64,000 bases of DNA. Origin: Blastocatellia bacterium (lineage in GTDB: Bacteria > Acidobacteriota > Blastocatellia > Chloracidobacteriales > Chloracidobacteriaceae). Location: contig JAIBAN010000032.1 of assembly GCA_019695185.1 (NCBI GenBank), forward strand, positions 1-64,000, given 5' to 3'. Below, one piece after another: positions 4,138 through 54,675 of the stretch; within the stretch, counting starts at the first letter, position 1, and each line of letters opens with the position of its first letter. Under the pieces are notes generated by a model. The model was given only the letters and a program-made list of their open reading frames with translations. It did not search any database and had not been told where the DNA came from. The position numbers and the translations under genes were made by a program.

Positions 4138-4172
4138 GGGTTCAGGGTTCAAGGTTCAGGGTTCAGGGTTGC
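4138..4172. repeat. Heptamer tandem array (GGGTTCA type), five units
   Basis: Consecutive heptamers GGGTTCA, GGGTTCA, AGGTTCA, GGGTTCA, GGGTTGC. It fills the 5' leader of the response-regulator gene, starting one base from its ATG, where the ribosome site should be. Confidence 0.9.
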
Positions 4173-4250
4173 TCTGCCTCCTGTAACAGCAAGGCGGTAC
4201 CCAATCGAGGAAACTACCAGACCGTTCGCCACAGGCAAAGAAAACAAGCT

Positions 4251-4278
4251 CGGTCCTGAGTCTTCAGTCCTCGGTCCT
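4251..4278. repeat. Heptamer tandem array (GGACTGA type, complement), four units
   Basis: CGGTCCT, GAGTCTT, CAGTCCT, CGGTCCT: a degenerate copy of the GGACTGA family read on the other strand. It lies in the same divergent spacer as the GGGTTCA array, so both repeat families sit within 140 bases of each other. Confidence 0.75.
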
Positions 4279-14145: not shown

Positions 14146-14231
14146 TCACCGCAGAGGCGCAGAGAAGACGCAGAGGATGTGTAGGGGAAAAAACAGAAAA
14201 ACTCTGCGAAAACTCCGCGCCTCTGCGGTGA
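14146..14231. repeat. Long palindromic element, copy 1
   Basis: The arms TCACCGCAGAGGCGC (14146-14160) and GCGCCTCTGCGGTGA (14217-14231) are perfect 15-base complements, with inner CAGAG/CTCTG segments. It is closely similar to the element at 25211-25303. Such elements are often mistranslated as small proteins ending in LCASAV; I reject those frames. Confidence 0.9.
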
Positions 14232-14343: not shown

Positions 14344-17300
14344 TTACCGTTTCGTGAGGTTCATGTAAATATCCTCCGAGCCGGTGTGTGTGCCGGTCCA
14401 AAAGACCAGCAGGCCATCTTTGCCGGAGGGGATGAGCCCCAGATGTTCCCCATAATTGGCGGCCCAGGTGCGCCCCGGATTTGAAACGGAGGTATTGGAA
14501 GGCAGGTCAGACACCTGCCGGGCAGTAAAATCCACTCCTCCATTGGTTGACCAAGCCACGTAAACGTGGGCTGTTTCGCCGGTGGGGTCATGGCGTGTGT
14601 CATAAAAACCAAGTGAGACAGTTCCGCCTGAATCTACGGCAAGACTGGGAAGGAACCGTTCCCCCTGAACGGCAGCGGCGATGGCCTGGGGAGTCGTCCA
14701 GCTTTGCCCGTAATTGGTGGAACGACTGAACCAGACCTCCATGCGGTCGTTTTTGACATCGGCAAACAGAGCCAAAAAGGTGCCGGGGCGGGTGTTGTCG
14801 GCGGCGATGGTCAGATTGGGAGTGGCAACCGTGTCAGCCAGAGCGCTGATTTTTCTGCCGGACCCGATTTGCGTGGGGGAAATCACCACCGGAGCCCCAA
14901 AACTCAGGGAATCAGCCCCAAATCGGCACATCAGGCGGCTCTGCCCATCATCATTCCATCCAATCATCAAACCTCCCGTGGAAGGGACGCACAGGGTTGG
15001 ATGGGAAACCTGACCGGCGGCTATTTCAAGCAGCCTTCGCGCCGCCAAATCGTAAAACCGGATGTGGTGAGTGTTGCCTGCAACCGTCTGGTCTTCCCAG
15101 GCAAGGTAGGGCCGCCCTCCGGCCACGGCAATCACCGGGCGACCAAGGGCCACAAATTCCGCTGCGCCATGAGTTTCCAAGGCAACCGGAGGCGCAAACG
15201 TCACCCGGTCGTTCAGCTTTTGGGAAAGAACCAAGGCAGTTGCATTGTTATCCACATCAGCCACCACATAAACCACCATCAGGTTTCCATTTTGGTCATA
15301 AGCCGCTGCTGGTTCAAAAGCGGTGTGGTACGTCTTGCCGCCAACCGTCCGGCTCAGGTTCACCTGCCGCCAACTGCCGCCGTCCTCCGTGTATTTCACC
15401 ACCACGTTTCCACTGGCGTAATCGTTGGCCACCACTGCCATCCGGCGCGGTTCGTTCGGGTCAACCGCCGCCTGCACCCCGGCCTGCAAACCGGCTCCAC
15501 CAATAAACAAGGACTGAGGACTGAGGACTGAGGGCTGAGGATTTTGCTCTTCGAAACCCGAATTTTGATTCCCCAGTTTGAAGGTAAAGCTGCCCACCGG
15601 TTTTGCCACCGGAGAGGTGTTTGTCGCAGCGTAGAAATCGGCCACAAACTGGAACTGGGCACGGTTGGTCTGGTCCACCGCAATCCGGAAATCCACCGGA
15701 ATTGAATTTCCGGGAGCCAAGGGCGCGGAAACCGATTGCTGGGCGCTGCCCCCGGCGGGCGTCCCGCTGTTGCGGGAATCAAGATAATAGGGGCGCGGGT
15801 CGTTGGGAATTTCCGGAATCTTGGCCAATTGGCGGACCTGCCAGTACAACGGAGCCTGCAAGGTCTGGCCGGAAGTGTTGGTCATCATGCCCTGGATGGT
15901 AAAGGTTCCGTAACTGGTATCAACCGGATTGGAGGGCGGCGTGCTGCCCGTGTAGCTGGTTCCCGTCACTGAGAGCGAAACCAGGCTGGTGGCCTGAATA
16001 GCCACCTGCGTGCTGGCGGTGCCGGTGCAGCCGCCGGTTGGGTTGGTGATGGTGACGGTATAGGTTCCGCTCATGGCCTGGGTTGCTCCCAGCCGGACCG
16101 GGTTTTGTTGGGTTGAAGTAAACCCGCCCGGACCAGTCCAACTGTAGGTATAGGTTCCGGCCAATCCGGGGGTGGCCAGCAGTTGGAGCGGGCCGTTCAG
16201 CAACACCGGTCCATTGTAGGAAGCGGCCACTGTCGGAGCCGGAACGACTGTAACCATGACCGGAACCGTCTGAAAACTGCACCCTCCCACCGTTACCCGA
16301 CAGAAATATGAGTCACTGGCCGAAACAGTGATGGCTTGCGTGGTGGCCCCGGTATTCCACAGATAGGTGCTTCCCCCACCCGCAGCATTGGCCGTGAGGG
16401 TGACGGCTCCGCCCTGACAGAAGGTGGTCGGCCCGCTGGCGGCAACAGTGGCGGTCGTGGCCAGAGTGACCGTCACATTGGCGCTGCTGGAACATCCGGA
16501 AATGCTGTTGGTGACGGTCCAGCGCAGGATGAACGGAGAGGTGGTTCCACCCGTGTGCTGGAATGTCGCATTGGGTGTGGTTGAGGAAAAGAAATTCCCG
16601 CTGATTCCCGGCGTGACGATACTCCATTGGCCGGTTTCATTGGCTCCAGGCGAGTTGCCGCCCAATCCGAAAATGCCGTTGCCGCTGCACATGGTGAACG
16701 AACCTGGGGCAGTTGCGACTGGTGGAATAAACACCGTGAAAACCTCACCGGTAAAGGGCAGGAAGGCAATTCCCGGTGTAACACCGGTTGTGTTCGTCAG
16801 GTTGAGGCCAAGAGTTCCGGCACCACTTCCAACCGTGGCGGTCACCGTGTAGGTTGTCCCGCTGCCGGTAATGCCGGTCAAAGCCGGGCCGGTCAGACCC
16901 GAATTCGCCAGAGTAAAATTGGAAAGGGATAACCCGGTTACCGAATTGGCGAGAACCAGATTCCAACTGACGGAAACTCCCGTGTTGCACACGACTGCAC
17001 TTCCAAGGCGGGCCAGGGAAAGAACCTTGAGCGGGATATAAAACAATCGGACCGAATCGAAAATGGCTCCGGTCAGACAGTTGCGCGAGTTCCTTCCCAA
17101 TCCCCGCACCCGAACAAAAAGATTTTGATTGACTGACAGGGCCAGTCCGGTCAATTGCCAGCCACCTGAAATCCGGGTTCCGTTCCCCAGTGCCGTGTAG
17201 GTGATTCCATCGCTTGACCGCTCAAAGGTCACCTGTTCGACTTCGGGGCTGGCACCGCTGCGCAGCCAGGTCAGCGTGGTCCCGGTGGCATTGACCGACA

Positions 17301-19611
17301 CATCCTGGAAAGCGGTCGTGTCATTTCCCAGCCTGCCGAGCCGGGAGCAGGTCTGTCCGGCCAGTGTGTTGAATCCTCCGCCGGCCACCATGCCTCCATC
17401 GGTTTGCAGGGCCACGGCCAGCACAAAATCATCCGTGTTGGCCACAAAAGCCGGGTCCAGCGAACCGGTGCCGGTAATCCGAACCAACCCGGTGCGGGCC
17501 TGTCCGTTGACGTTGGTAAATGAACCAGCCACCAGAATTTTACCATCTGTTTGGACGGTCATGCCCAGCACATCATTATTGGGAGTGAAGGTCAATCCGG
17601 CGTCCCCGGTGCCATCACTGTTGAGGCGAACCAGATTGGTCCGGGCCAGACCTCCAATAGTAGTAAAGGTGCCCCCGGCCAGGATTTTTCCGTCGGATTG
17701 GACCACCAGCGTCCGAATGGTGCCGTTGGCAGCGGCATTAAAGGCGGGGTCCAGGGTTCCATCCCCGTTGAGCCGCACCAGACCTCTGGCAGTTTGACCA
17801 TTGACCGTATTGAATTGCCCCCCCACCAGGATTTTTCCGTCCGACTGCAAACCGATGGTTTGGACCGCGCTATCGGTGTTGGCGGTGAAAGCGGTTTCCG
17901 GCGTGCCGTTACTGTTGAGCCGGGCAATGTTGGCGTGGCCTTCACCACCAATTTGATTGAACAAACCTCCGACCAGAATTTTTCCGTCCGGTTGGATAAC
18001 CAGCGAAAGGACTTGATTATTGGCATTGGGATTAAAGGCGGCGTCAATCGTCCCGTTCGCGTTGAGGCGGGCGATGAAATTGCGGCTTTGACCGGCAATG
18101 GTGACAAAACTGCCACCCACCAGAATTTTTCCATCGGTTTGGACCACGATGGCGCTGACTCTGCCGGACGGATTGGGCAGAAACGTGGCATCAAGAGTTC
18201 CATCCGGATTGAAGCGGGCCATCCGGCTGCGGGGTTGTCCGCTGATGGTGTTGAAATCCCCGCCCACCAGAATTTTCCCGTCCGGTTGCACCGCCAGACT
18301 GGTAATGATGTTGTCGGGCGCAGGAATAAAGGCTGGGTCCAGCTCAATGGTCAAATTGAGCCGCCCCAGGCAGGTGACCGCCACCCCTCCCAAGTTGGAG
18401 AAATTGCCTCCGGCCAAAATTTTTCCATCGGCCTGCAAGCCCAACGTCAACACCGTGTTGTCGGCTCCCAGGCTGAACAGGCCGTCCAGGGTTCCATCCG
18501 GGTTGACCCGTGCCAGCCGGTTCCGGGTTTGTCCGCCAACACTGGTAAAACTCCCGCTTGCCACCACTTTTCCATCCGGCTGCACGGCGATTGCGTTCAC
18601 CGTGCCATTGGCATTGGGATTGAAAGTCGGGTCTATTCCTCCGTTTGAATCCAGCCGGGCCAGCCGATTCCGGGTATTTCCCGCCACGCCGGTAAAGCTG
18701 CCACCCAGCAGAATTTTCCCGTCTGCCTGAAGTGCCAGACACCCAACCTCGCCGCCGGAAGCCCCCGGATTGAAGGCCGGGTCCGCCGTTCCGTCACTGT
18801 TGAGCCTTGCGATTGCAATGCGGGATTGTCCTCCGATATTGGTGAAAAAACCGCCTGCCAGAGCTTTTCCATCCGGCTGCACCGCCACCGACAGGACTAA
18901 ACTGTTTGCATTGGGGTTGTAACCGGTGTCCAGAGTTCCGTCCGGATTCAGCCGGGCGATATTTCTTCGGGTTTGGCCTCCCACCGAAGAGAATGTGCCG
19001 CCCAAAACGATTTTCCCATCGCCTTGGAGGGCGAGCGTCAGCACCTGACTATTGGGATTGGGATTAAACGAAAGGTCCACCGACCCGTCGCTGTTGAGGC
19101 GGGCCAGACCGGTGCGGGATTGACCTCCAATGCCGGTATAAAAACCTCCCACCAGGATTTTCCCGTCGGGCTGCACCAGGATGGCGTTGACAGACGCTGA
19201 TGTCCCGGTGACATTGGCGGTAAAAATGGTGTCAAGGGTCCCGTTGCTGTTTAAGCGGGCCAGATTGCCGCGCGATTGACCGGCAATGGAACCAAAAGTC
19301 CCACCCACCAGGATTTTCCCATCCGGCTGCACCGCCACCACATTCACGGCCCCATTCGGATTCGGGGTAAACCCGGTATCCGTCGGAAGCCCTTCCGGAT
19401 TGAAGCCAACCCGGTTGACCTCTGGTTCCGCAGGTCGGGGCGCATCAATCTGCCTGGTCTGAAAGAACATCGGTTGTTTTGGTATCATTTTCCGGGCAGC
19501 CGAGGTTGGAACCACCAGAATCTGCCCCAAGGCGAACAAACCAACCAGCGCCAGCAAGCTCATCAAGTTCCGAACAGGCACCAAAGGCAAAGAATTTCCG
19601 GGCTTCAACAT
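14344..19611 (-). CDS. Giant secreted delta-60-repeat protein A (two propellers, Ig-like, sialidase-like end)
   Basis: 1755 residues with an N-terminal signal/anchor (hydrophobic LMSLLALVGLFALGQILVV, about 16-34). From about residue 80 to 750 there are 14 repeats of roughly 50 residues, each centred on VQPDGKILVGG-type strands followed by ARLNSDGTLD: the delta-60 repeat, a beta-propeller blade. Fourteen repeats suit two seven-bladed propellers, and the seventh repeat is divergent (CLGRLN). Then come a region with Cys pairs and Ig/PKD-like domains (about 800-1250, for example SGTYTVTITNPTGGCTG), and a C-terminal sialidase-like segment with Asp-box-like turns such as STNYGQSW. Near residue 1362 a heptamer array is translated in frame. 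GGAGGT precedes the ATG. Likely a surface adhesin or binding protein; ligand unknown. Confidence 0.9.
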   Translation of the reverse strand: MLKPGNSLPLVPVRNLMSLLALVGLFALGQILVVPTSAARKMIPKQPMFFQTRQIDAPRPAEPEVNRVGFNPEGLPTDTGFTPNPNGAVNVVAVQPDGKILVGGTFGSIAGQSRGNLARLNSNGTLDTIFTANVTGTSASVNAILVQPDGKILVGGFYTGIGGQSRTGLARLNSDGSVDLSFNPNPNSQVLTLALQGDGKIVLGGTFSSVGGQTRRNIARLNPDGTLDTGYNPNANSLVLSVAVQPDGKALAGGFFTNIGGQSRIAIARLNSDGTADPAFNPGASGGEVGCLALQADGKILLGGSFTGVAGNTRNRLARLDSNGGIDPTFNPNANGTVNAIAVQPDGKVVASGSFTSVGGQTRNRLARVNPDGTLDGLFSLGADNTVLTLGLQADGKILAGGNFSNLGGVAVTCLGRLNLTIELDPAFIPAPDNIITSLAVQPDGKILVGGDFNTISGQPRSRMARFNPDGTLDATFLPNPSGRVSAIVVQTDGKILVGGSFVTIAGQSRNFIARLNANGTIDAAFNPNANNQVLSLVIQPDGKILVGGLFNQIGGEGHANIARLNSNGTPETAFTANTDSAVQTIGLQSDGKILVGGQFNTVNGQTARGLVRLNGDGTLDPAFNAAANGTIRTLVVQSDGKILAGGTFTTIGGLARTNLVRLNSDGTGDAGLTFTPNNDVLGMTVQTDGKILVAGSFTNVNGQARTGLVRITGTGSLDPAFVANTDDFVLAVALQTDGGMVAGGGFNTLAGQTCSRLGRLGNDTTAFQDVSVNATGTTLTWLRSGASPEVEQVTFERSSDGITYTALGNGTRISGGWQLTGLALSVNQNLFVRVRGLGRNSRNCLTGAIFDSVRLFYIPLKVLSLARLGSAVVCNTGVSVSWNLVLANSVTGLSLSNFTLANSGLTGPALTGITGSGTTYTVTATVGSGAGTLGLNLTNTTGVTPGIAFLPFTGEVFTVFIPPVATAPGSFTMCSGNGIFGLGGNSPGANETGQWSIVTPGISGNFFSSTTPNATFQHTGGTTSPFILRWTVTNSISGCSSSANVTVTLATTATVAASGPTTFCQGGAVTLTANAAGGGSTYLWNTGATTQAITVSASDSYFCRVTVGGCSFQTVPVMVTVVPAPTVAASYNGPVLLNGPLQLLATPGLAGTYTYSWTGPGGFTSTQQNPVRLGATQAMSGTYTVTITNPTGGCTGTASTQVAIQATSLVSLSVTGTSYTGSTPPSNPVDTSYGTFTIQGMMTNTSGQTLQAPLYWQVRQLAKIPEIPNDPRPYYLDSRNSGTPAGGSAQQSVSAPLAPGNSIPVDFRIAVDQTNRAQFQFVADFYAATNTSPVAKPVGSFTFKLGNQNSGFEEQNPQPSVLSPQSLFIGGAGLQAGVQAAVDPNEPRRMAVVANDYASGNVVVKYTEDGGSWRQVNLSRTVGGKTYHTAFEPAAAYDQNGNLMVVYVVADVDNNATALVLSQKLNDRVTFAPPVALETHGAAEFVALGRPVIAVAGGRPYLAWEDQTVAGNTHHIRFYDLAARRLLEIAAGQVSHPTLCVPSTGGLMIGWNDDGQSRLMCRFGADSLSFGAPVVISPTQIGSGRKISALADTVATPNLTIAADNTRPGTFLALFADVKNDRMEVWFSRSTNYGQSWTTPQAIAAAVQGERFLPSLAVDSGGTVSLGFYDTRHDPTGETAHVYVAWSTNGGVDFTARQVSDLPSNTSVSNPGRTWAANYGEHLGLIPSGKDGLLVFWTGTHTGSEDIYMNLTKR
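15511..15540. repeat. Heptamer tandem array (GGACTGA type) inside giant gene A
   Basis: Units GGACTGA three times then GGGCTGA, read in frame on the minus strand as QPSVLSPQS. A single GAAACCC unit follows at about 15551. It sits at the boundary between the Ig-like region and the sialidase-like domain. Confidence 0.92.
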
Positions 19612-19700
19612 AACGACCTCCGCAGGATTTTAAGGGTGGGAGTTGCTTCACCCACCACATGCGCAAAGACTTGGTGAATTCACTCAGAGGCGAAAGAATT
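19612..19700 (-). promoter_or_regulatory. Leader of giant gene A, shared with gene B
   Basis: Read on the minus strand, this leader ends TGCGGAGGTCGTT then ATG, identical to gene B over that stretch. Further up it can form a GGTGGG/CCCACC hairpin with a ten-base loop, followed upstream by GCGCATG, AGTCT and ATTC blocks also found before gene B. Common regulation of the pair is inferred. Confidence 0.5.
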
Positions 19701-19701
19701 T

Positions 19702-19804
19702 GTTTTGAGTTCCGTCTTCAGGCGGCTCTTTTCTTCCCAACCAAAAGGACAGGCTGAAGCCTGGACTCCAAGCGAAGGAGCGGCCTGAAGGCGGAACTCA
19801 AAAC
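19702..19804. repeat. Imperfect inverted repeat between the giant genes
   Basis: Bases 19702-19724 and the complement of 19782-19804 agree at about 21 of 23 positions (core GTTTTGAGTTCCG). An inner CAGGCT/AGCCTG pair lies between. The right arm abuts the gene B stop codon, so the structure could end its transcription. It also resembles a small non-autonomous mobile repeat. Confidence 0.75.
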
Positions 19805-22800
19805 CTATCTGGTGGCTGCAAAGAAAATGTCTTCGGACCCGCTGCGGGTATCGGTCCAAAAGACCAGCACGCCTTCTTTCCCCCGTGAAAGCACACTCAT
19901 TTGTTCACCGTAATTGGCGGCCCAGGTCCGCCAAGGATTGGCAGCCGAGGTGTTGGAAGGGATGTCGGTTGTCTGCAGGAAAGTAAAGGTGATGCCTCCG
20001 TCGGTGGAGCGGGCGGTGTCAACATGGGCTGTTTCGCCGCTGGCGTCGTGGCGTGTGTCATAAAATCCCAGGGCTAAGAATCCGCTCCAGTCCGCTGAAA
20101 GACATGGCAGGAACCGGTCGCCCGCAGCCCCTCCGCCCATCGGCTGAGGGGTGCTCCAGCTTTGGCCGTTATCAGTGGAGCGGGTGAAATAGACTTCCAG
20201 ATTTGAACCGTTGACATCGGCAAACGTCGCATACAGGGTATTTTTTCGGGTCGGGTCAAAAACCAACGTTAGATTCGGGGTAGCCACTGTGTCGGCCAGG
20301 GCATTGATTTTCCGGCCATAACCGATTTGAGTCGCGGTAACCACCACCGGCTGTCCAAAACTGGCAGAGTCGTCTCCGAAACGACACATCAGTTTGCTTT
20401 GGCCGCTGTCATTCCAGCCGACAGCCAGATTTCCGGTGGAAGTCAGCGTCAGAGTCGGGTGAGAAACCTTGCCTGCTGCAATTTCCACCAGCCGCCGCGC
20501 CGCCAAATCATAAAGCTGGATGGAGTGAGTGGTTCCCGCTAGCGTTTGTTCCTCCCAGGCAACGTAGGGCCTGCCGCCAGCCACTGCCAGCACGGGACGC
20601 CCCAAGGCCACAAATTCTGCCGCCCCGTGGGATTCCATTGCCACCGGAGGTGAAAAGGTCAACCGGTCGTTCAGTTTTTGGGAGAGCACAAGCGCGTTGG
20701 CATTGGTGGTGAAATCAGCCACCACATACACCACCATCAAATTGCCGTTCTGGTCGTAGGCAGCCGAGGGTTCAAAAGCGGTTTGATAGGTTTTGCCGTT
20801 CACCGTCCGGCTCAAGGCCAGTTGTCGCCACCCAACGCCATCCTCAGTATATTTCACCAGCACATTTCCGGTGGCGTAGTCATTGGCAACCACCGCCATC
20901 CGGCGCGGTTCTTTGGGGTCAACCGTTGCCCGCACCCCGGCCTGCGAACCACTGCCGCCGAAAAATGAGGACTGAGGACTGAGGGCTGAGGACTGAGTAT
21001 TTTCCTCATTGAAACCCGAAACCCGAAACCCGAAACCCGGATTTTGATTCCCCAGACTCCCTAGATTGTAAACGAAGCTCCCAAGCGGTTTTTCTATGGG
21101 TGAGGCGTTCGTGGCTGCGTAGAAATCAATGTAAAACTGAAACGAGGCCCGGTTGGTCTGGTCCACTGCCACGCGGAACTGGACTGGCACATTTTGTCCC
21201 GGATTGAGCGTTCCCGAAACCGTTTGCCGGGCATTGACAGCGGCTGGCGTTCCGGCATCCCGTGAATCCAGGTAGTACGGTCGAGGGTCATTTGGAACAT
21301 CGGGAATTTTGTTCAGTTGGCGAACCACCCAATACATCGGTGCCTGCAGGGTCTGCCCGGAGGTGTTTGTCATCAGGGTTTGGATGGTAAATGTTCCATA
21401 ACCCGTATCCACCGGGTTGACCGGCGGCGTGCTGCCCGTGTAGGTGACTCCAGTCAAACCAACCGAGACTGTTCCGTTGGCCTGAACCGCAACCGTCGTG
21501 GAGGCAGTTCCGCTGCATCCGGTCACCAGGTTGGTGAGGTTCACCGTGTAGGTGCCGCTCATTGCCAGCGTCGCACCCAGCCGGATTGGGTTTTGCTGGG
21601 TTGAGGTAAAGCCGCCGGGACCGTTCCAATTGTAGGTGTAGCTGCCGGGAATGCCCGGTGTGGCATACAATTCCAACGGGCCGTTTTGCAGAACCGGTGC
21701 ATTGTGCGCAGCCGTCACGGTTGGCGCAGGCGTCACCGTCACTGTCACCGGAGGCGTCAGAAACTGGCATCCTCCCGCTGTCACCTGACAGGAATAGGTC
21801 CCGCTGGCGGCGGCGGTTATGGTGCGGGTGGTGGCCCCGGTGTTCCACAGGTAAAGCGCACCTGGAATGCTCGCGGTCAACTGGACGTTTCCACCCTGGC
21901 AGAACGTTGTCGGTCCGCCTGGGGTAATGGTCGCACTGCTTACCAGTGTAACCTGAAAATCAGCCGGGTTGGTGCAACCGGCAATCGTGTTGGTGACGGT
22001 CCAGCGGAGGGTAAAGGGACTGGCGCTCCCACCCGTGTGGCGGAAAACGGCATTGGGGTCATTGGCAACTGAAAAGGTCCCGGTAATGCCGGGTGTGACG
22101 ATGCTCCAAGACCCGTTTTCATTCGGACCCGGTGTATTGCCACCCAAACCAAACACAGCGCCGCCGCTGCAAATCTGGGCGGCACCGCCGGTGGTTGCGG
22201 TGGGTGGTGCCAGCACTGTGTAAGCCTCGCCGGTGAAGGGCAGAAAGGAAACTCCGGGGGTTATGCCGGTGGCATTGGCCATATTGAGGCCCAGGCTTCC
22301 GCTGCTCGTGCCGGTCGTGGCCGTCACGGTTCGGGTCGTTCCACTGCCTGAAATTCCGGTCAGGGCCGGGCCTGTCAAACCCGAATTGGCCAGGGTAAAA
22401 TTGGAGGTCGTGACCCCGCTGACCGCGCCTGCAAAGGTCACGGTCCAACTCACGGTGGCGCTGTTGCAGGCTTGGGGAATCCCGTTCCGGGTTATCGAAA
22501 GGACCGGCAAAGCCTGATAGAACTGACGGACGGACTCGGCCACGCATCCAGTGCCGTTTGCCCCGGAACAGTTATAAAATCCACGTGCCCGAATAAAGAG
22601 GTTTTGAAAAAAACCGAGCGAAACCCCGGTCAGTTGCCAGCCTCCGGAAATGCGGGTGCCATTCCCCAGAGGGGAAAAGTTGACGCCGTCGGCGGATTGT
22701 TCAAAGGTGACCCGGTCCACTTCGGGGCTCGCTCCGCTTCGCATCCAGGTGAGCGTCGTTCCTGTCACATTGGCTGAGAGGTTTTGCTGCGCCGCCGTAT

Positions 22801-25087
22801 CATTGGCCAGCCGCGCCAAGCCGGAGCGGGGTTGGCCGTTGAGGGTGGTGAACTGGCCAACCACCACAATTTTTCCATCCGGCTGCATGGCCACGGAATT
22901 GATGGTGTTATTCGCATCCGGAATGAAAGTGGCATCCAGATTGGCGTCGCTCGCCAGTCGGATGAAGCGGTTGCGCGTCTGCCCACTCATGACAGTGAAA
23001 GCCCCCCCAATCAGGATTTTTCCGTCGGTTTGGAGAGCCACTGAAAACACACTGCCGTTTGCAATCGGGTTGAAACCACCATCAGTTGTTCCATCGGCAT
23101 TGAGGCGTCCAATCTGGTTGCGCGCCTGGCCATTCAATTGGGTGAAATCCCCGCCAATCACGATTTTTCCGTCTGTCTGGATGGCCAGTGCCCGCACCTC
23201 GGCATTGGCATTGGGGTTGAACCCGGCGTCAGCCACTCCATCCGGATTCAGGCGGGCCACCCGGACACGGGTCACGGTGGAAATGGTGGTGAATGCTCCG
23301 CCGACCAGGATTCTGCCGTCCGTCTGGATGGCCAGAGTGGTGACGAAGCCGTTTGGCTGGGGAACGAAACTCCCGTCCCGTGTTCCGTCACTATTGAGCC
23401 GGGCCAGAAACGTGTGAGGAACACCGCCAAAAATTTGGGTGAAATTTCCACCCATCAGGATTTTTCCGTCCGATTGGATGGCGATAGTCCCGACCACCCC
23501 GTTGGCATTTGGATCCAGGGAATCCAGCGTTCCGTCCGGATTGAGTCGGGCCATACGGCCACGCGCCTGCCCCCCCATGGTGGTGAATCTGCCGCCCGCC
23601 ACAATTTTTCCATCCGGCTGCACCGCCAGACTGAGCACCGTGTCATTGGCATTTGGGTTGAACGTTGCATCCGCCGTTCCATCGGGGTTGAGCCGGGCAA
23701 TCCGGTTGCGGGCCAGCCCGCCGATCATGGTGAAATCACCGCCCACCAGGATTTTTCCGTCTGGTTGAATCGCAAGGGCTGAAACCCCGCCGTTCGGATT
23801 CGGATTGAACGGCCCATCCCCATCGCCGGTGGCGTAGGCGCGTCCGAGAAATTGGGCCGGGGCGGCAGCGAGTGATGTAAAATTTCCACCCGCCAGAATT
23901 TTTCCATCCGCCTGCACTGCCACTGCATTCACCCAACCGCCGTTGCTGACAGAACACGAGAATGACAACTGAATCGTCCCGTCCGGGTTAAGCCGGGCAA
24001 GGCCCACCCGTCCAATCCCGCCAAACGCAGTGAAGAAGCCGCCCACCACAATTTTGCCATCGGCTTGCAGGGCGAGGCTGCTGACCGACCCGTTGACATT
24101 CAAATTGAAAGGATTGTCAAAGCTGCCATCACTGTTGTAGCGGGCCAGAAACCGGCGGCTTTGTCCGCTGATGGTGAGAAAATTGCCTCCCACCACGATT
24201 TTTCCATCGGGTTGAACGACAAGGGCCGTGACAATATCACTTGCATTCGGGTCAAAAAGCGTATCAAGAGTGCCATCGGCGTTGACTCGGCCCATCCGGT
24301 TACGGGTTTGACCGCCCAGATTGGTAAAGGCTCCGCCCAGCAGAATTCTTCCATCAGGCTGCACGGCCAGAGCCTGGACCGTACTGTTGGCGTTGGGATT
24401 GAACGCCGTGTCAAGTGTCCCGTCAGCATTCAACCGGGCAATCCGGTTGCGGGTTTGTCCTGCGATGGCGGTCAAGTCACCGCCTGCCAGAATTTTTCCG
24501 TCAGATTGGAGCGCCAGCGTCAAAACGGTGTTGTTGGCATTGGGATTAAAGGCTGTGTCCAGCGTCCCGTCAGCATTCAACCGGGCAATCCGGTTGCGGG
24601 TTTGTCCGTTCAGGCTGGTGAACGTGCCGCCCACCAGTATTTTTCCATCCGGTTGCGCCAGCAGAACATTGACCTGTCCTCCTGAAACTGTGGGATTAAA
24701 GGCTGTGTCGAGCGTTGCGTTCGGGTTCAGTTGAGCCAAACCAGTGCGGGCCTGCCCGGAAATGGAAGAAAACGCTCCGCCCACCAGGATTTGTCCGTTT
24801 ACCTGCACGGCAACGCACGTAATCATGCCGTTGGGATTAGGGGTAAATCCGTCATCGGCATAGAGTCCTTCAGGGCGGACCACCCTTTGCTGGGAGGAAA
24901 CCGGGAATAGTGACCGGAGGGTGCTTTCCGCTGCCTCAACCGGCGGTGAATTCAGTTTGGAAACAGGCGCGTCTGCCTGAACCGTGCGGCGGGTTGGTGG
25001 ATGCCCCAACAGGCACAAACTGAAGACCGAGAAAAAAACGACCACCAACCGGGGAAAAAAGGGGATAAATCTTCCGGGATGCACCAT
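19805..25087 (-). CDS. Giant secreted delta-60-repeat protein B, paralogue of A
   Basis: 1760 residues, colinear with protein A throughout. A signal segment (about 8-28, hydrophobic) is followed by 14 delta-60 repeats between about residues 80 and 750; the seventh is again aberrant (FLGRAY with no normal ARLN), marking the likely join between two seven-bladed propellers. The middle has the same Cys-containing and Ig/PKD-like domains (WSIVTPGITG, SGTYTVNLTNLVTGCSG). The end is sialidase-like, with STDNGQSW and EDIFFAATR. The heptamer insertion at about residue 1362 is longer than in A and adds GFGFRVSGF. GGAGGTCGTT precedes ATG exactly as in A. The pair clearly arose by tandem duplication. Probable cell-surface or secreted binding protein; ligand and export route unknown. 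Confidence 0.9.
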   Translation of the reverse strand: MVHPGRFIPFFPRLVVVFFSVFSLCLLGHPPTRRTVQADAPVSKLNSPPVEAAESTLRSLFPVSSQQRVVRPEGLYADDGFTPNPNGMITCVAVQVNGQILVGGAFSSISGQARTGLAQLNPNATLDTAFNPTVSGGQVNVLLAQPDGKILVGGTFTSLNGQTRNRIARLNADGTLDTAFNPNANNTVLTLALQSDGKILAGGDLTAIAGQTRNRIARLNADGTLDTAFNPNANSTVQALAVQPDGRILLGGAFTNLGGQTRNRMGRVNADGTLDTLFDPNASDIVTALVVQPDGKIVVGGNFLTISGQSRRFLARYNSDGSFDNPFNLNVNGSVSSLALQADGKIVVGGFFTAFGGIGRVGLARLNPDGTIQLSFSCSVSNGGWVNAVAVQADGKILAGGNFTSLAAAPAQFLGRAYATGDGDGPFNPNPNGGVSALAIQPDGKILVGGDFTMIGGLARNRIARLNPDGTADATFNPNANDTVLSLAVQPDGKIVAGGRFTTMGGQARGRMARLNPDGTLDSLDPNANGVVGTIAIQSDGKILMGGNFTQIFGGVPHTFLARLNSDGTRDGSFVPQPNGFVTTLAIQTDGRILVGGAFTTISTVTRVRVARLNPDGVADAGFNPNANAEVRALAIQTDGKIVIGGDFTQLNGQARNQIGRLNADGTTDGGFNPIANGSVFSVALQTDGKILIGGAFTVMSGQTRNRFIRLASDANLDATFIPDANNTINSVAMQPDGKIVVVGQFTTLNGQPRSGLARLANDTAAQQNLSANVTGTTLTWMRSGASPEVDRVTFEQSADGVNFSPLGNGTRISGGWQLTGVSLGFFQNLFIRARGFYNCSGANGTGCVAESVRQFYQALPVLSITRNGIPQACNSATVSWTVTFAGAVSGVTTSNFTLANSGLTGPALTGISGSGTTRTVTATTGTSSGSLGLNMANATGITPGVSFLPFTGEAYTVLAPPTATTGGAAQICSGGAVFGLGGNTPGPNENGSWSIVTPGITGTFSVANDPNAVFRHTGGSASPFTLRWTVTNTIAGCTNPADFQVTLVSSATITPGGPTTFCQGGNVQLTASIPGALYLWNTGATTRTITAAASGTYSCQVTAGGCQFLTPPVTVTVTPAPTVTAAHNAPVLQNGPLELYATPGIPGSYTYNWNGPGGFTSTQQNPIRLGATLAMSGTYTVNLTNLVTGCSGTASTTVAVQANGTVSVGLTGVTYTGSTPPVNPVDTGYGTFTIQTLMTNTSGQTLQAPMYWVVRQLNKIPDVPNDPRPYYLDSRDAGTPAAVNARQTVSGTLNPGQNVPVQFRVAVDQTNRASFQFYIDFYAATNASPIEKPLGSFVYNLGSLGNQNPGFGFRVSGFNEENTQSSALSPQSSFFGGSGSQAGVRATVDPKEPRRMAVVANDYATGNVLVKYTEDGVGWRQLALSRTVNGKTYQTAFEPSAAYDQNGNLMVVYVVADFTTNANALVLSQKLNDRLTFSPPVAMESHGAAEFVALGRPVLAVAGGRPYVAWEEQTLAGTTHSIQLYDLAARRLVEIAAGKVSHPTLTLTSTGNLAVGWNDSGQSKLMCRFGDDSASFGQPVVVTATQIGYGRKINALADTVATPNLTLVFDPTRKNTLYATFADVNGSNLEVYFTRSTDNGQSWSTPQPMGGGAAGDRFLPCLSADWSGFLALGFYDTRHDASGETAHVDTARSTDGGITFTFLQTTDIPSNTSAANPWRTWAANYGEQMSVLSRGKEGVLVFWTDTRSGSEDIFFAATR
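20969..20996. repeat. Heptamer tandem array (GGACTGA type) inside giant gene B
   Basis: GGACTGA, GGACTGA, GGGCTGA, GGACTGA: four units, translated in frame as QSSALSPQSS at the same protein position as in gene A, but with the variant unit in a different place. Confidence 0.92.
21011..21038. repeat. Heptamer tandem array (GAAACCC type) inside giant gene B
   Basis: Four perfect GAAACCC units. Gene A has only one at the equivalent place. The difference of three units is 21 bases, so the frame is kept and seven residues are added. Confidence 0.93.
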
Positions 25088-25210: not shown

Positions 25211-25303
25211 TTTTTCACCGCAGAGGCGCAGAGAAGGCGCAGAGGATGCGCACAGAAAGAAAAGAAAAACTCTGCGAAAACTCTGCGCCTCTGCGGTGAA
25301 AAA
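25211..25303. repeat. Long palindromic element, copy 2
   Basis: The 23 bases at 25211-25233 are the exact complement of 25281-25303, with core TCACCGCAGAGGCGCAGAG. It matches copy 1 at 14146-14231 in arms and in the A-rich centre. The two copies bracket the giant paralogues. Confidence 0.93.
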
Positions 25304-52621: not shown

Positions 52622-52676
52622 CTCAGTCCTCAGTCCTCAGTCCTCAGTCCTGGATTGTGTCCTCAGTTCTCAGTCC
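52622..52676. repeat. Heptamer tandem array (GGACTGA type, complement), 4+2 units
   Basis: Four perfect CTCAGTC units (52622-52649), a 13-base interruption, then CTCAGTT and CTCAGTC (52663-52676). It lies inside the efflux operon between channel and adaptor genes. Confidence 0.93.
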
Positions 52677-52686
52677 TTTTTTCGAA

Positions 52687-54075
52687 TTAGTTTCCCGCCG
52701 TTTGCGCCAGCCGGGCGCGGGCCGTCTGGTAATCAAAAATCGCCTGATACAATGCGGTTCGCTGGGTGACCAATGTCGTTTGCGCATCCGTCACTTCCAG
52801 GATGGACCCTTCCCCGGCTCGGTAACGGGCAATCGAGGTTGCGACATTCCGCTCGGCATCCGTGACCCCGGTGACTCCCCAACCAATTCGTTTTCCCGCA
52901 CTTCTGGCCTGCGCCAGAGCTGCATAAAATTGCTGGGCAAAGGCTTTGAGGGCCACTGTTTTGGCTGATTCCAGGGCTTTGGCCCGGAGGCGGGCCTGTT
53001 GTTCGTGGCTTTTGCTCACGCCCCAGTCAAACAGCGGAATAGTCAGGCTGAAGGTGGCAGAGGCTCCGCTGGCCGGTCCGAGCAGGTCGGCATGCAACGA
53101 CGCAGCATCAAAACCTCCGTTGATGAAATAGGTCAGTTGGGGCAACCGTTCCGCCCGCGCCAACCGTATGTCACGTTCCGCCGCCTGCCGCTCGGCTTCC
53201 AATTGTTTCAATTCCGGACGTTGCTCAATCAGGTCAGCGGTAAACCGGTCCAGTTCACCCGTGATGGGAATCATCTCAAGGATGTTTCCGACTTCGAACG
53301 AAACCCCAAAGTCAAACCCCACCAGGATGCGCAAACCGTCGGCAGCCCCGGTTTCATTTGCCCTGGCGGTTTCCACCTCGCTGCGGCGGGAAGCCGTTTG
53401 TAATCCGGCCCGGACTAAATCCACCGGGGCGGCTTCCCCACCCTTGACCAGAAGGTCGGTAATTCGTTCAAACGCCTCAGCGGCTTCCAGGTTTTGTTCC
53501 GCCAGCCGCCGGTTTCCCACGGCCAGAGCCAGCGTGTAATACGCCTCTTCGGTAGCCCGTACCAGGTCCCGCCGGGCGGCTTCAGTTCCGGCCCCGGCAG
53601 CCGCCAGCAATGCGCGGTTTCGTTTGAGCGTGGTGCGCAAGCGCCCGGCCACATCCAATTCGCCCGCAGCCCCGACAAACCCGACAAATTCATGAATCGA
53701 ATTGGCGGCAATATAGCTGGGAGCACGGGGCGCATCCGGCGGGTTTCCCACAGCCGGCGAAGTGTAAATGTAACTGGAGGAATGCGTCACTTTCGGCAGA
53801 AAACCGGCCTTGGCCTGTTTGACATCCTCAGCCGCCGCAGCTTCGGCCAACTGTGCCTGCTGAAAACCCGAAGCCTGCTGCAACGCCAGCCTGACGGCTT
53901 CCTCCCTGGAAAGATGGGGCAAAGGGGATGGCACAGTGGGCGGACCCGTCTGGGCTGACGGAGTTGGAGGGGACACCTGAACTATCTGCGCCCACACTGA
54001 GGCTGGCACAAGCAACGCCATGACCGGAAGTGAACTGAGGAAACACCATTTCCAGTTCTTGTTTTTTTTGACCAT
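52687..54075 (-). CDS. TolC-family outer-membrane efflux channel
   Basis: 462 residues from ATG 54075 (GTG 54093 is possible; no strong ribosome site). A signal peptide (WKWCFLSSLPVMALLVPASVWA) precedes a proline-rich start and two OEP repeats. Each has a barrel-forming strand region (HSSSYIYTSPAVGNPP; PQLTYFINGGFD) and long coiled helices (EDVKQAKAGFLPKVT; EEAYYTLALAVGNRRLAEQNLEAAEAFERI; RIGWGVTGVTDAERNVATSIARYRAGEGSILEV). First gene of the tripartite operon with adaptor and RND pump. It provides the exit duct across the outer membrane, which also confirms a Gram-negative envelope. Confidence 0.92.
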   Translation of the reverse strand: MVKKNKNWKWCFLSSLPVMALLVPASVWAQIVQVSPPTPSAQTGPPTVPSPLPHLSREEAVRLALQQASGFQQAQLAEAAAAEDVKQAKAGFLPKVTHSSSYIYTSPAVGNPPDAPRAPSYIAANSIHEFVGFVGAAGELDVAGRLRTTLKRNRALLAAAGAGTEAARRDLVRATEEAYYTLALAVGNRRLAEQNLEAAEAFERITDLLVKGGEAAPVDLVRAGLQTASRRSEVETARANETGAADGLRILVGFDFGVSFEVGNILEMIPITGELDRFTADLIEQRPELKQLEAERQAAERDIRLARAERLPQLTYFINGGFDAASLHADLLGPASGASATFSLTIPLFDWGVSKSHEQQARLRAKALESAKTVALKAFAQQFYAALAQARSAGKRIGWGVTGVTDAERNVATSIARYRAGEGSILEVTDAQTTLVTQRTALYQAIFDYQTARARLAQTAGN

Positions 54076-54675
54076 AAGCTGGTTTACACGCACCGGGTTC
54101 GGTTTGGAGCGGGAAGGGCAAAGGACTGATTGAGGTGATTTTGAAGACGAACTTTATCGCCCTGACCGCCAGAATGGAAGAGGTGGACGAAATTGAGAGC
54201 CGCAGAACTATGGCCTGTTGGCTCAGTTTGTTTTCTTTGATTGCGGCAAGCCGTCAAGCGGTACATCAACCCAGGCCGTTAGTTCGGGTTCCGGGTTCCG
54301 GGTTCGGAGGGTGAAACCCTTCTTGCTGGATTGAAGGTTCCAACTTACCAAACCAAAGTTCGACCAAAACCTGCCGAAATCCGAAACCCTAACATGTGTC
54401 CGTCGAAACCGGGTGAAAGTGCTCCTTCAGGGATTAGGGGCAGACGACCAGGACAAAAAACACAAGGCCAGTCCTCGGATTACACTGACCTGTCACCTTT
54501 CGCTTCGGACCTGTCGCAGGGCAATCGGGGTTCCCACCCTGTCACCAACCTTCATTCGCTTTCATTGTTTCCAGGATTGTGATTTGCCTTTATACTGCTG
54601 CCACCTGTCCCGTATCCTTCCCCTTCACCAATTTCCTTCAAACTGAAGGTACCTCTCCCCTCCCAAGAGGTGTCC
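54076..54675. other. 600-base divergent spacer with a heptamer array
   Basis: Lies between the efflux operon and the hybrid kinase. No gene is supported. It carries a CGGGTTC array at 54285-54305 and a TATACT hexamer at about 54592 that could be a -10 for the kinase gene, without a firm -35. Confidence 0.45.
54285..54305. repeat. Heptamer tandem array (CGGGTTC type), three units
   Basis: Three perfect CGGGTTC units followed by a partial one, in the spacer between the efflux operon and the hybrid kinase gene. Confidence 0.88.

Follow-up and report, generated by a model that had tools for sequence, protein, structure and literature searches.

Two neighboring giant genes in a 64,000-nucleotide stretch of a Blastocatellia bacterium contig (the window, by which we mean that whole stretch) carry arrays of seven-nucleotide units that are translated in frame at the same domain border of both proteins. 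Do such arrays, three units of which make seven codons, serve to change the length of a linker without a frameshift, or did they reach the two genes by another route? The features on which the question turns are listed here.

14344-19611, minus strand: gene A, a long open reading frame of 1755 aa.
15510-15541, plus strand: GGACTGA array in gene A, the right arm (TCAGTCC on the coding strand; peptide PQPSVLSPQS; TRF and direct reading).
About 15554-15560, plus strand: single GAAACCC unit in gene A, a left-arm remnant (GGGTTTC on the coding strand; direct reading).
19805-25087, minus strand: gene B, a long open reading frame of 1760 aa and a paralog of A.
20966-20997, plus strand: GGACTGA array in gene B, the right arm (peptide TQSSALSPQS; TRF and direct reading).
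21011-21039, plus strand: four GAAACCC units in gene B, the left arm (GGGTTTC on the coding strand; peptide GFGFRVSGF).
4138-4278, no strand assigned: intergenic bracket between divergent genes, with a GGGTTCA arm at 4138-4170 and a TCAGTCC arm at 4249-4278.
52622-52651, minus strand: intergenic GGACTGA arm of 30 bp, 35 nt downstream of the stop codon of the gene at 52687-54093 (minus strand).

Gene A encodes 13 DUF5122 (delta-60 type) repeats, an Ig-like part and a BNR-like C-terminal propeller; gene B encodes 13 DUF5122 repeats and the Ig-like part, the BNR-like match being noted for A. The two proteins are 59% identical over 1770 aligned positions, and the arrays correspond, by arithmetic, to residues 1357-1368 in A and to about residues 1364-1375 in B. 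As a sequence-only reading of this DNA had described, the arrays are translated in frame at the domain border of both proteins (TRF, direct reading and open reading frames), and the GGACTGA array encodes a QPSVLSPQS-type peptide, the coding-strand (TCAGTCC)n being read as NPQPSVLSPQS in A and as NTQSSALSPQS in B. The same reading had counted one GAAACCC unit in A and four in B, and the alignment agrees: B has 21 more nucleotides without a frameshift, and its seven additional residues (PGFGFRV) come from three extra GGGTTTC units. An unrelated 3-residue gap also separates A and B in the linker alignment. A chance origin of the arrays is ruled out, as the two-unit pattern GGACTGAGGACTGA (at most one mismatch) has 12 matches in the window versus 0.02 expected. 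The sequence of the four GAAACCC units of B fits a G3N4 x4 quadruplex motif. In an AlphaFold model of the C-terminal part of A/B (mean pLDDT, 43.4), the linker block scores 21 to 35, a result that carries little weight because most of the model is likewise low. Arrays of 11-base units (AGGCGCAGAGA, AAAACTCTGCG and AAAACTCCGCG) lie at 25224-25287 and 14198-14219 of the window, just upstream of B and downstream of A.

The genome (G000, loci L039-L060) encodes about 20 paralogous giant DUF5122/Ig/BNR proteins. In 38 relatives the A/B family has weak matches only, and a contig scan with the A protein found no relative. Arrays occupy the same linker in six paralogs, with a left arm of GGGTTTC (A and B), GGGTTCA (C189 and C146), a TCAGTCC-like unit (C151) or a 9-mer (C128), while array-free paralogs share the fused architecture and have ordinary linkers. 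In the tree, A, B, C189 and C146 group together as a clade (support, 100/100), and C151 and C128 fall outside a group in which some members are array-free. This topology calls for two or more changes of array state, so that insertion only once, in an ancestor of the A/B family, is uncertain. The TCAGTCC arrays of five paralogs are identical at 24 to 26 of 27 nt, whereas fourfold sites in their flanks are only 35 to 56% identical. Given that these flanking sites are near saturation, we infer that the array was renewed or constrained as DNA. Slippage, copying from other arms or selection may each be responsible.

The same units are abundant throughout the 8.33-Mb draft genome (222 contigs), from which we sampled stretches totaling 1.92 Mb (23%). 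The GGACTGA trimer occurs 1169 times in the genome (overlapping matches counted) and at most 9 times in any one of 396 genomes of the phylum. Perfect heptamer arrays of at least three copies number 474 in the sample, with GGACTGA, GGGTTCA, GAGAATT and GAGTTTT as the main units, and period 7, in several units, is dominant among all tandem repeats of the genome. A search by family yielded 550 arms in the sample. Of these arms, 510 are intergenic, though 82% of the sample was called coding, and 38 (about 7%, a share that may be somewhat high because the sample was chosen partly around contigs known to hold paralogs or composites) lie well inside called genes, with counts at gene edges being approximate under the simple codon-usage script used as gene caller. 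Arms that face a stop codon do so at a median distance of 5 nt in the sample, and brackets between divergent genes are rare (7 of 156, versus 140 of 768 gaps). The arrays are high-copy, mostly intergenic tandem heptamers near sense-strand stops, with a mode of four units for GGACTGA, and as such they belong with the heptameric STRRs.

Their position a few nucleotides from stop codons and their underuse between divergent genes, both as in Rehm et al. (PMC4692102), would suit arrays that are kept for a nucleic-acid structure or for binding, be it as hairpin, G-quadruplex or target of a repeat-binding protein, at gene ends and in mRNA. The conservation of the coding arrays at the DNA level points the same way, as do the four G3 tracts of B and of several GGGTTCA arms. 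By sequence alone, GGGTTCA and GGGTTTC arms fit the G3 motif; the commonest unit, GGACTGA, however, has G2 tracts only, and A is nearly devoid of its G-rich arm. Moreover, the coding composites fold no better than shuffles (z = 0.55 for A, −0.43 for B and 0.24 for RecD2), and the 9-mer paralog C128 is the only case with a strong fold (z = −10.4). We give a structural or binding role some weight but consider it unlikely to be what keeps the arrays in place.

The arrangement of the arms is more regular than their abundance alone would suggest. Outside genes, neighboring arms on opposite strands within 150 bp follow the order (+)(−) in 167 cases and (−)(+) in 3, which makes the inverted doublet a unit, as in REPINs. 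Both arms belong to one family in 135 of 170 pairs (48.5 expected). GGACTGA arms tend to share their start within the unit, 98 of 126 beginning at the identical base, and have a modal length of 30 nt. The cores between arms have a mean GC content of 41%, versus 54% in the sample, and comparing them with one another produced 57 matches at E < 1e−3. When the 14 best core pairs were extended, similarity stopped at the element limits, arm to arm, and the loci were unrelated. Because core similarity was seen for a minority of brackets only, many brackets may be of old date or have formed in situ. For one GGGTTCA-armed element, the whole genome contains about 45 longer copies, several of them at contig ends. 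The contig-end copies, found on contigs C184, C154, C82, C22 and C66 of G000, probably break the assembly.

Because cores recur at unrelated loci and homology is confined to the element, the element behaves like a MITE or a REPIN. It has the terminal inverted repeats and the common core at many unrelated loci of a MITE, but no target-site duplication was seen (2 of 126 pairs, versus 3.6 by shuffling). A link to Y1 transposases was unsupported: Y1_Tnp genes are present, but none adjoins paired arrays, the Y1_Tnp search revealed no mobilizing enzyme, and none of the Y1 transposase genes examined is a RAYT gene flanked by repeats, as REPINs would have. In G003, a same-family relative, there are separate heptamer families (AGTGGTT, CAGTAGT, CATTCTT and GGGTTCA; loci L148-L160), whose few same-family opposite pairs have one polarity per family.

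A tight (GGGTTCA)n-(TCAGTCC)n composite is found at nine places in the genome. Seven of them are in open frames (two A/B paralogs, RecD2, two CHAT proteins, a propeller protein and a candidate AroE-like frame), and the other two are intergenic or doubtful. The RecD2 composite matches a copy on contig C150 at 78 of 81 bp (96%), and the flanks of the two are unrelated. The RecD2 proteins of aligned relatives are without the composite, and most other RecD2 proteins have a short linker there; the RecD2 of the same-family genome G001 (L116, C786) has a different, longer insert at this linker. An element of this anatomy and single polarity is present in many copies, at unrelated loci with unrelated flanks.

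Polymerase slippage, which Rehm et al. (PMC4692102) mention as one proposed cause of heptamer abundance, could in principle have raised each array locally at a permissive site, without mobility of any larger unit, and the prevalence of period 7 in several units fits such an origin. Yet the fixed start phase and length of the arms, the common cores that end at the arms, the inverted pairing within families and the 81-bp RecD2/C150 copy all require that a unit was copied. A purely local origin is in our judgment quite improbable.

Within genes of the sample, the coding strand carries TCAGTCC for each of the 17 GGACTGA arms and GGGTTCA for each of the 15 GGGTTCA arms. The opposite strands of both have stops in every frame, and the orientation is thus partly true by definition, because a stop on the other strand would end the open reading frame. 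These arms are located in loops or linkers of the RecD2 helicase, PEP carboxylase, LarC, CHAT proteins and the A/B paralogs; the array-bearing loops of PEP carboxylase, a LarC-type protein and a metalloenzyme-family protein are variable. The peptides SVLSPQS and GFRVQGS recur in unrelated genes, so that in-frame copies of the kind known for Rickettsia palindromic elements exist here as well. In a CHAT-domain protein (L176, on C81), four TCAGTCC units plus 14 nt form a 42-bp super-repeat in frame. A polyketide-synthase-like open reading frame of 2893 aa (L190, C6:3073-11751), identified by eye only, has GGGTTCA-encoded VQGSG stretches between what appear by eye to be repeated carrier-like domains.

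The sequence-only reading had held that only multiples of three units are tolerated within the genes and that linker length varies stepwise. Under such a scheme, slipped-strand steps of three heptamers would tune linker length in surface proteins as a frame-preserving rheostat. Three-unit steps are supported by the single A/B case (one versus four GGGTTTC units, 21 nt in frame) and by the in-frame super-repeats of 42 nt (14 codons) in the CHAT protein on C81. In-gene arrays, by contrast, are mostly 30 to 32 nt long, or about four units, with three and five units occurring too; the TCAGTCC array has about four units in all five paralogs, and the coding arrays form no three-unit ladder. Multiples of three are not the rule, because the usual GGACTGA arm of 30 nt (10 codons) is itself divisible by three. 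The need to keep the frame does limit which indels an established open reading frame can accept, but the stepwise rule drawn from it was not seen. Instead, the linkers differ chiefly in a swap of left-arm type (GGGTTTC, GGGTTCA, TCAGTCC-like or 9-mer) and in the absence of arrays. Housekeeping enzymes of the cytoplasm, RecD2 and PEP carboxylase among them, contain the same arrays, and we find a rheostat in surface proteins very unlikely. Because elements of the same type are in frame in unrelated enzymes and arrays occur at hundreds of sites, the arrays have the appearance of mobile-type DNA that is tolerated, and not of a dial for tuning length.

That A and B are a fusion of two genes, with the element as their former intergenic region, would agree with the normally intergenic position of such elements and with the domain border in A/B, but we set it aside as highly improbable because array-free paralogs are equally fused and have ordinary linkers; RecD2 and PEP carboxylase, moreover, carry arrays yet are no fusions at that point in relatives, and the tree, at its deeper branches, largely places fused array-free paralogs outside the array-bearing clade.

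We propose that the arrays of A and B are probably the two arms of a dispersed mobile-type repeat element, which was inserted into the ancestral linker and has been kept by tolerance. Such an element, tolerated in linkers and filtered by stop codons, is the most economical account of the data. It would have entered the ancestor of A and B between the Ig-like part and the C-terminal propeller, through transposition or template copying by a putative enzyme, as a left heptamer array followed by a core and an inverted right array. The intergenic form has arms mostly of one family around an AT-rich core of about 60 to 90 bp. In genes, the only arms seen are those with a stop-free sense strand, so that the composites have GGGTTCA or GGGTTTC as the left arm, a short spacer and TCAGTCC as the right arm, the outcome being an in-frame Gly/Gln- and Ser/Pro-rich stretch within a linker or loop. 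Retention would reflect tolerance and not a benefit of linker length, and the arrays may stay near-perfect because slippage or copying from other arms renews them, or through constraint on the DNA. More tentatively, we conjecture that this is a mobile family with heptamer arrays as its inverted repeats, whose stop-free mixed-arm form seeds disordered segments in many proteins and whose arrays are continually renewed.

Heptamer arrays near bacterial gene ends are known in several groups and have no accepted mechanism. The inverted pairs with common cores point to the copying of a unit, which is a concrete and testable idea. RecD2, PEP carboxylase and the giant propeller proteins, with their in-frame copies, offer natural experiments on how repeat DNA turns into protein linker, and genic copies have passed a clear filter, since stop-free arms alone are seen in genes.

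The combination of inverted pairs with heptamer arrays as arms was not found in the open-access literature searched, but several known systems share parts of it. The heptameric repeats of Xanthomonas and Nostoc, of the GGGNATC type, and the cyanobacterial STRRs (Rehm et al. 2015, PMC4692102) prefer four units, lie near sense-strand stops or before starts on the antisense strand and are under-represented between divergent genes. The arrays described here resemble them in placement and unit number and differ in their inverted brackets with common cores, in the coexistence of several unit families, in a main unit, GGACTGA, without G3 tracts and in the in-frame copies within enzymes. The TAACTGA repeats of Beggiatoaceae and others (MacGregor 2015, PMC4679880) have stops in all frames of the forward strand, so that the reverse strand alone is translated, and their copies in open reading frames are mostly at protein peripheries. 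Our arrays obey the same strand rule; however, the TAACTGA repeats are direct repeats mostly before start codons, with one indirect repeat, whereas here we see inverted pairs at gene ends and composites of two unit types. REPINs (Bertels and Rainey 2011, PMC3116915) are inverted doublets with a spacer, extragenic, that replicate as one unit. The element shares the doublet with its spacer, the mostly extragenic location and the behavior as a unit, but its arms are tandem heptamers rather than palindromic REPs, no adjacent RAYT gene was found and some copies are in frame inside genes. The Rickettsia palindromic elements (reviewed in PMC10969869), of about 150 bp, are likewise, by description, short elements in frame in unrelated genes with a recurring peptide, although the review does not describe them as heptamer arrays. 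Finally, the tandem repeats of Borgs (Schoelmerich et al. 2023, PMC9879509) have units divisible by three within open reading frames, nearly all of them unique. Like those repeats, the arrays are translated as probably disordered regions and have one hotspot in a protein family, but here a 7-nt unit is common genome-wide.
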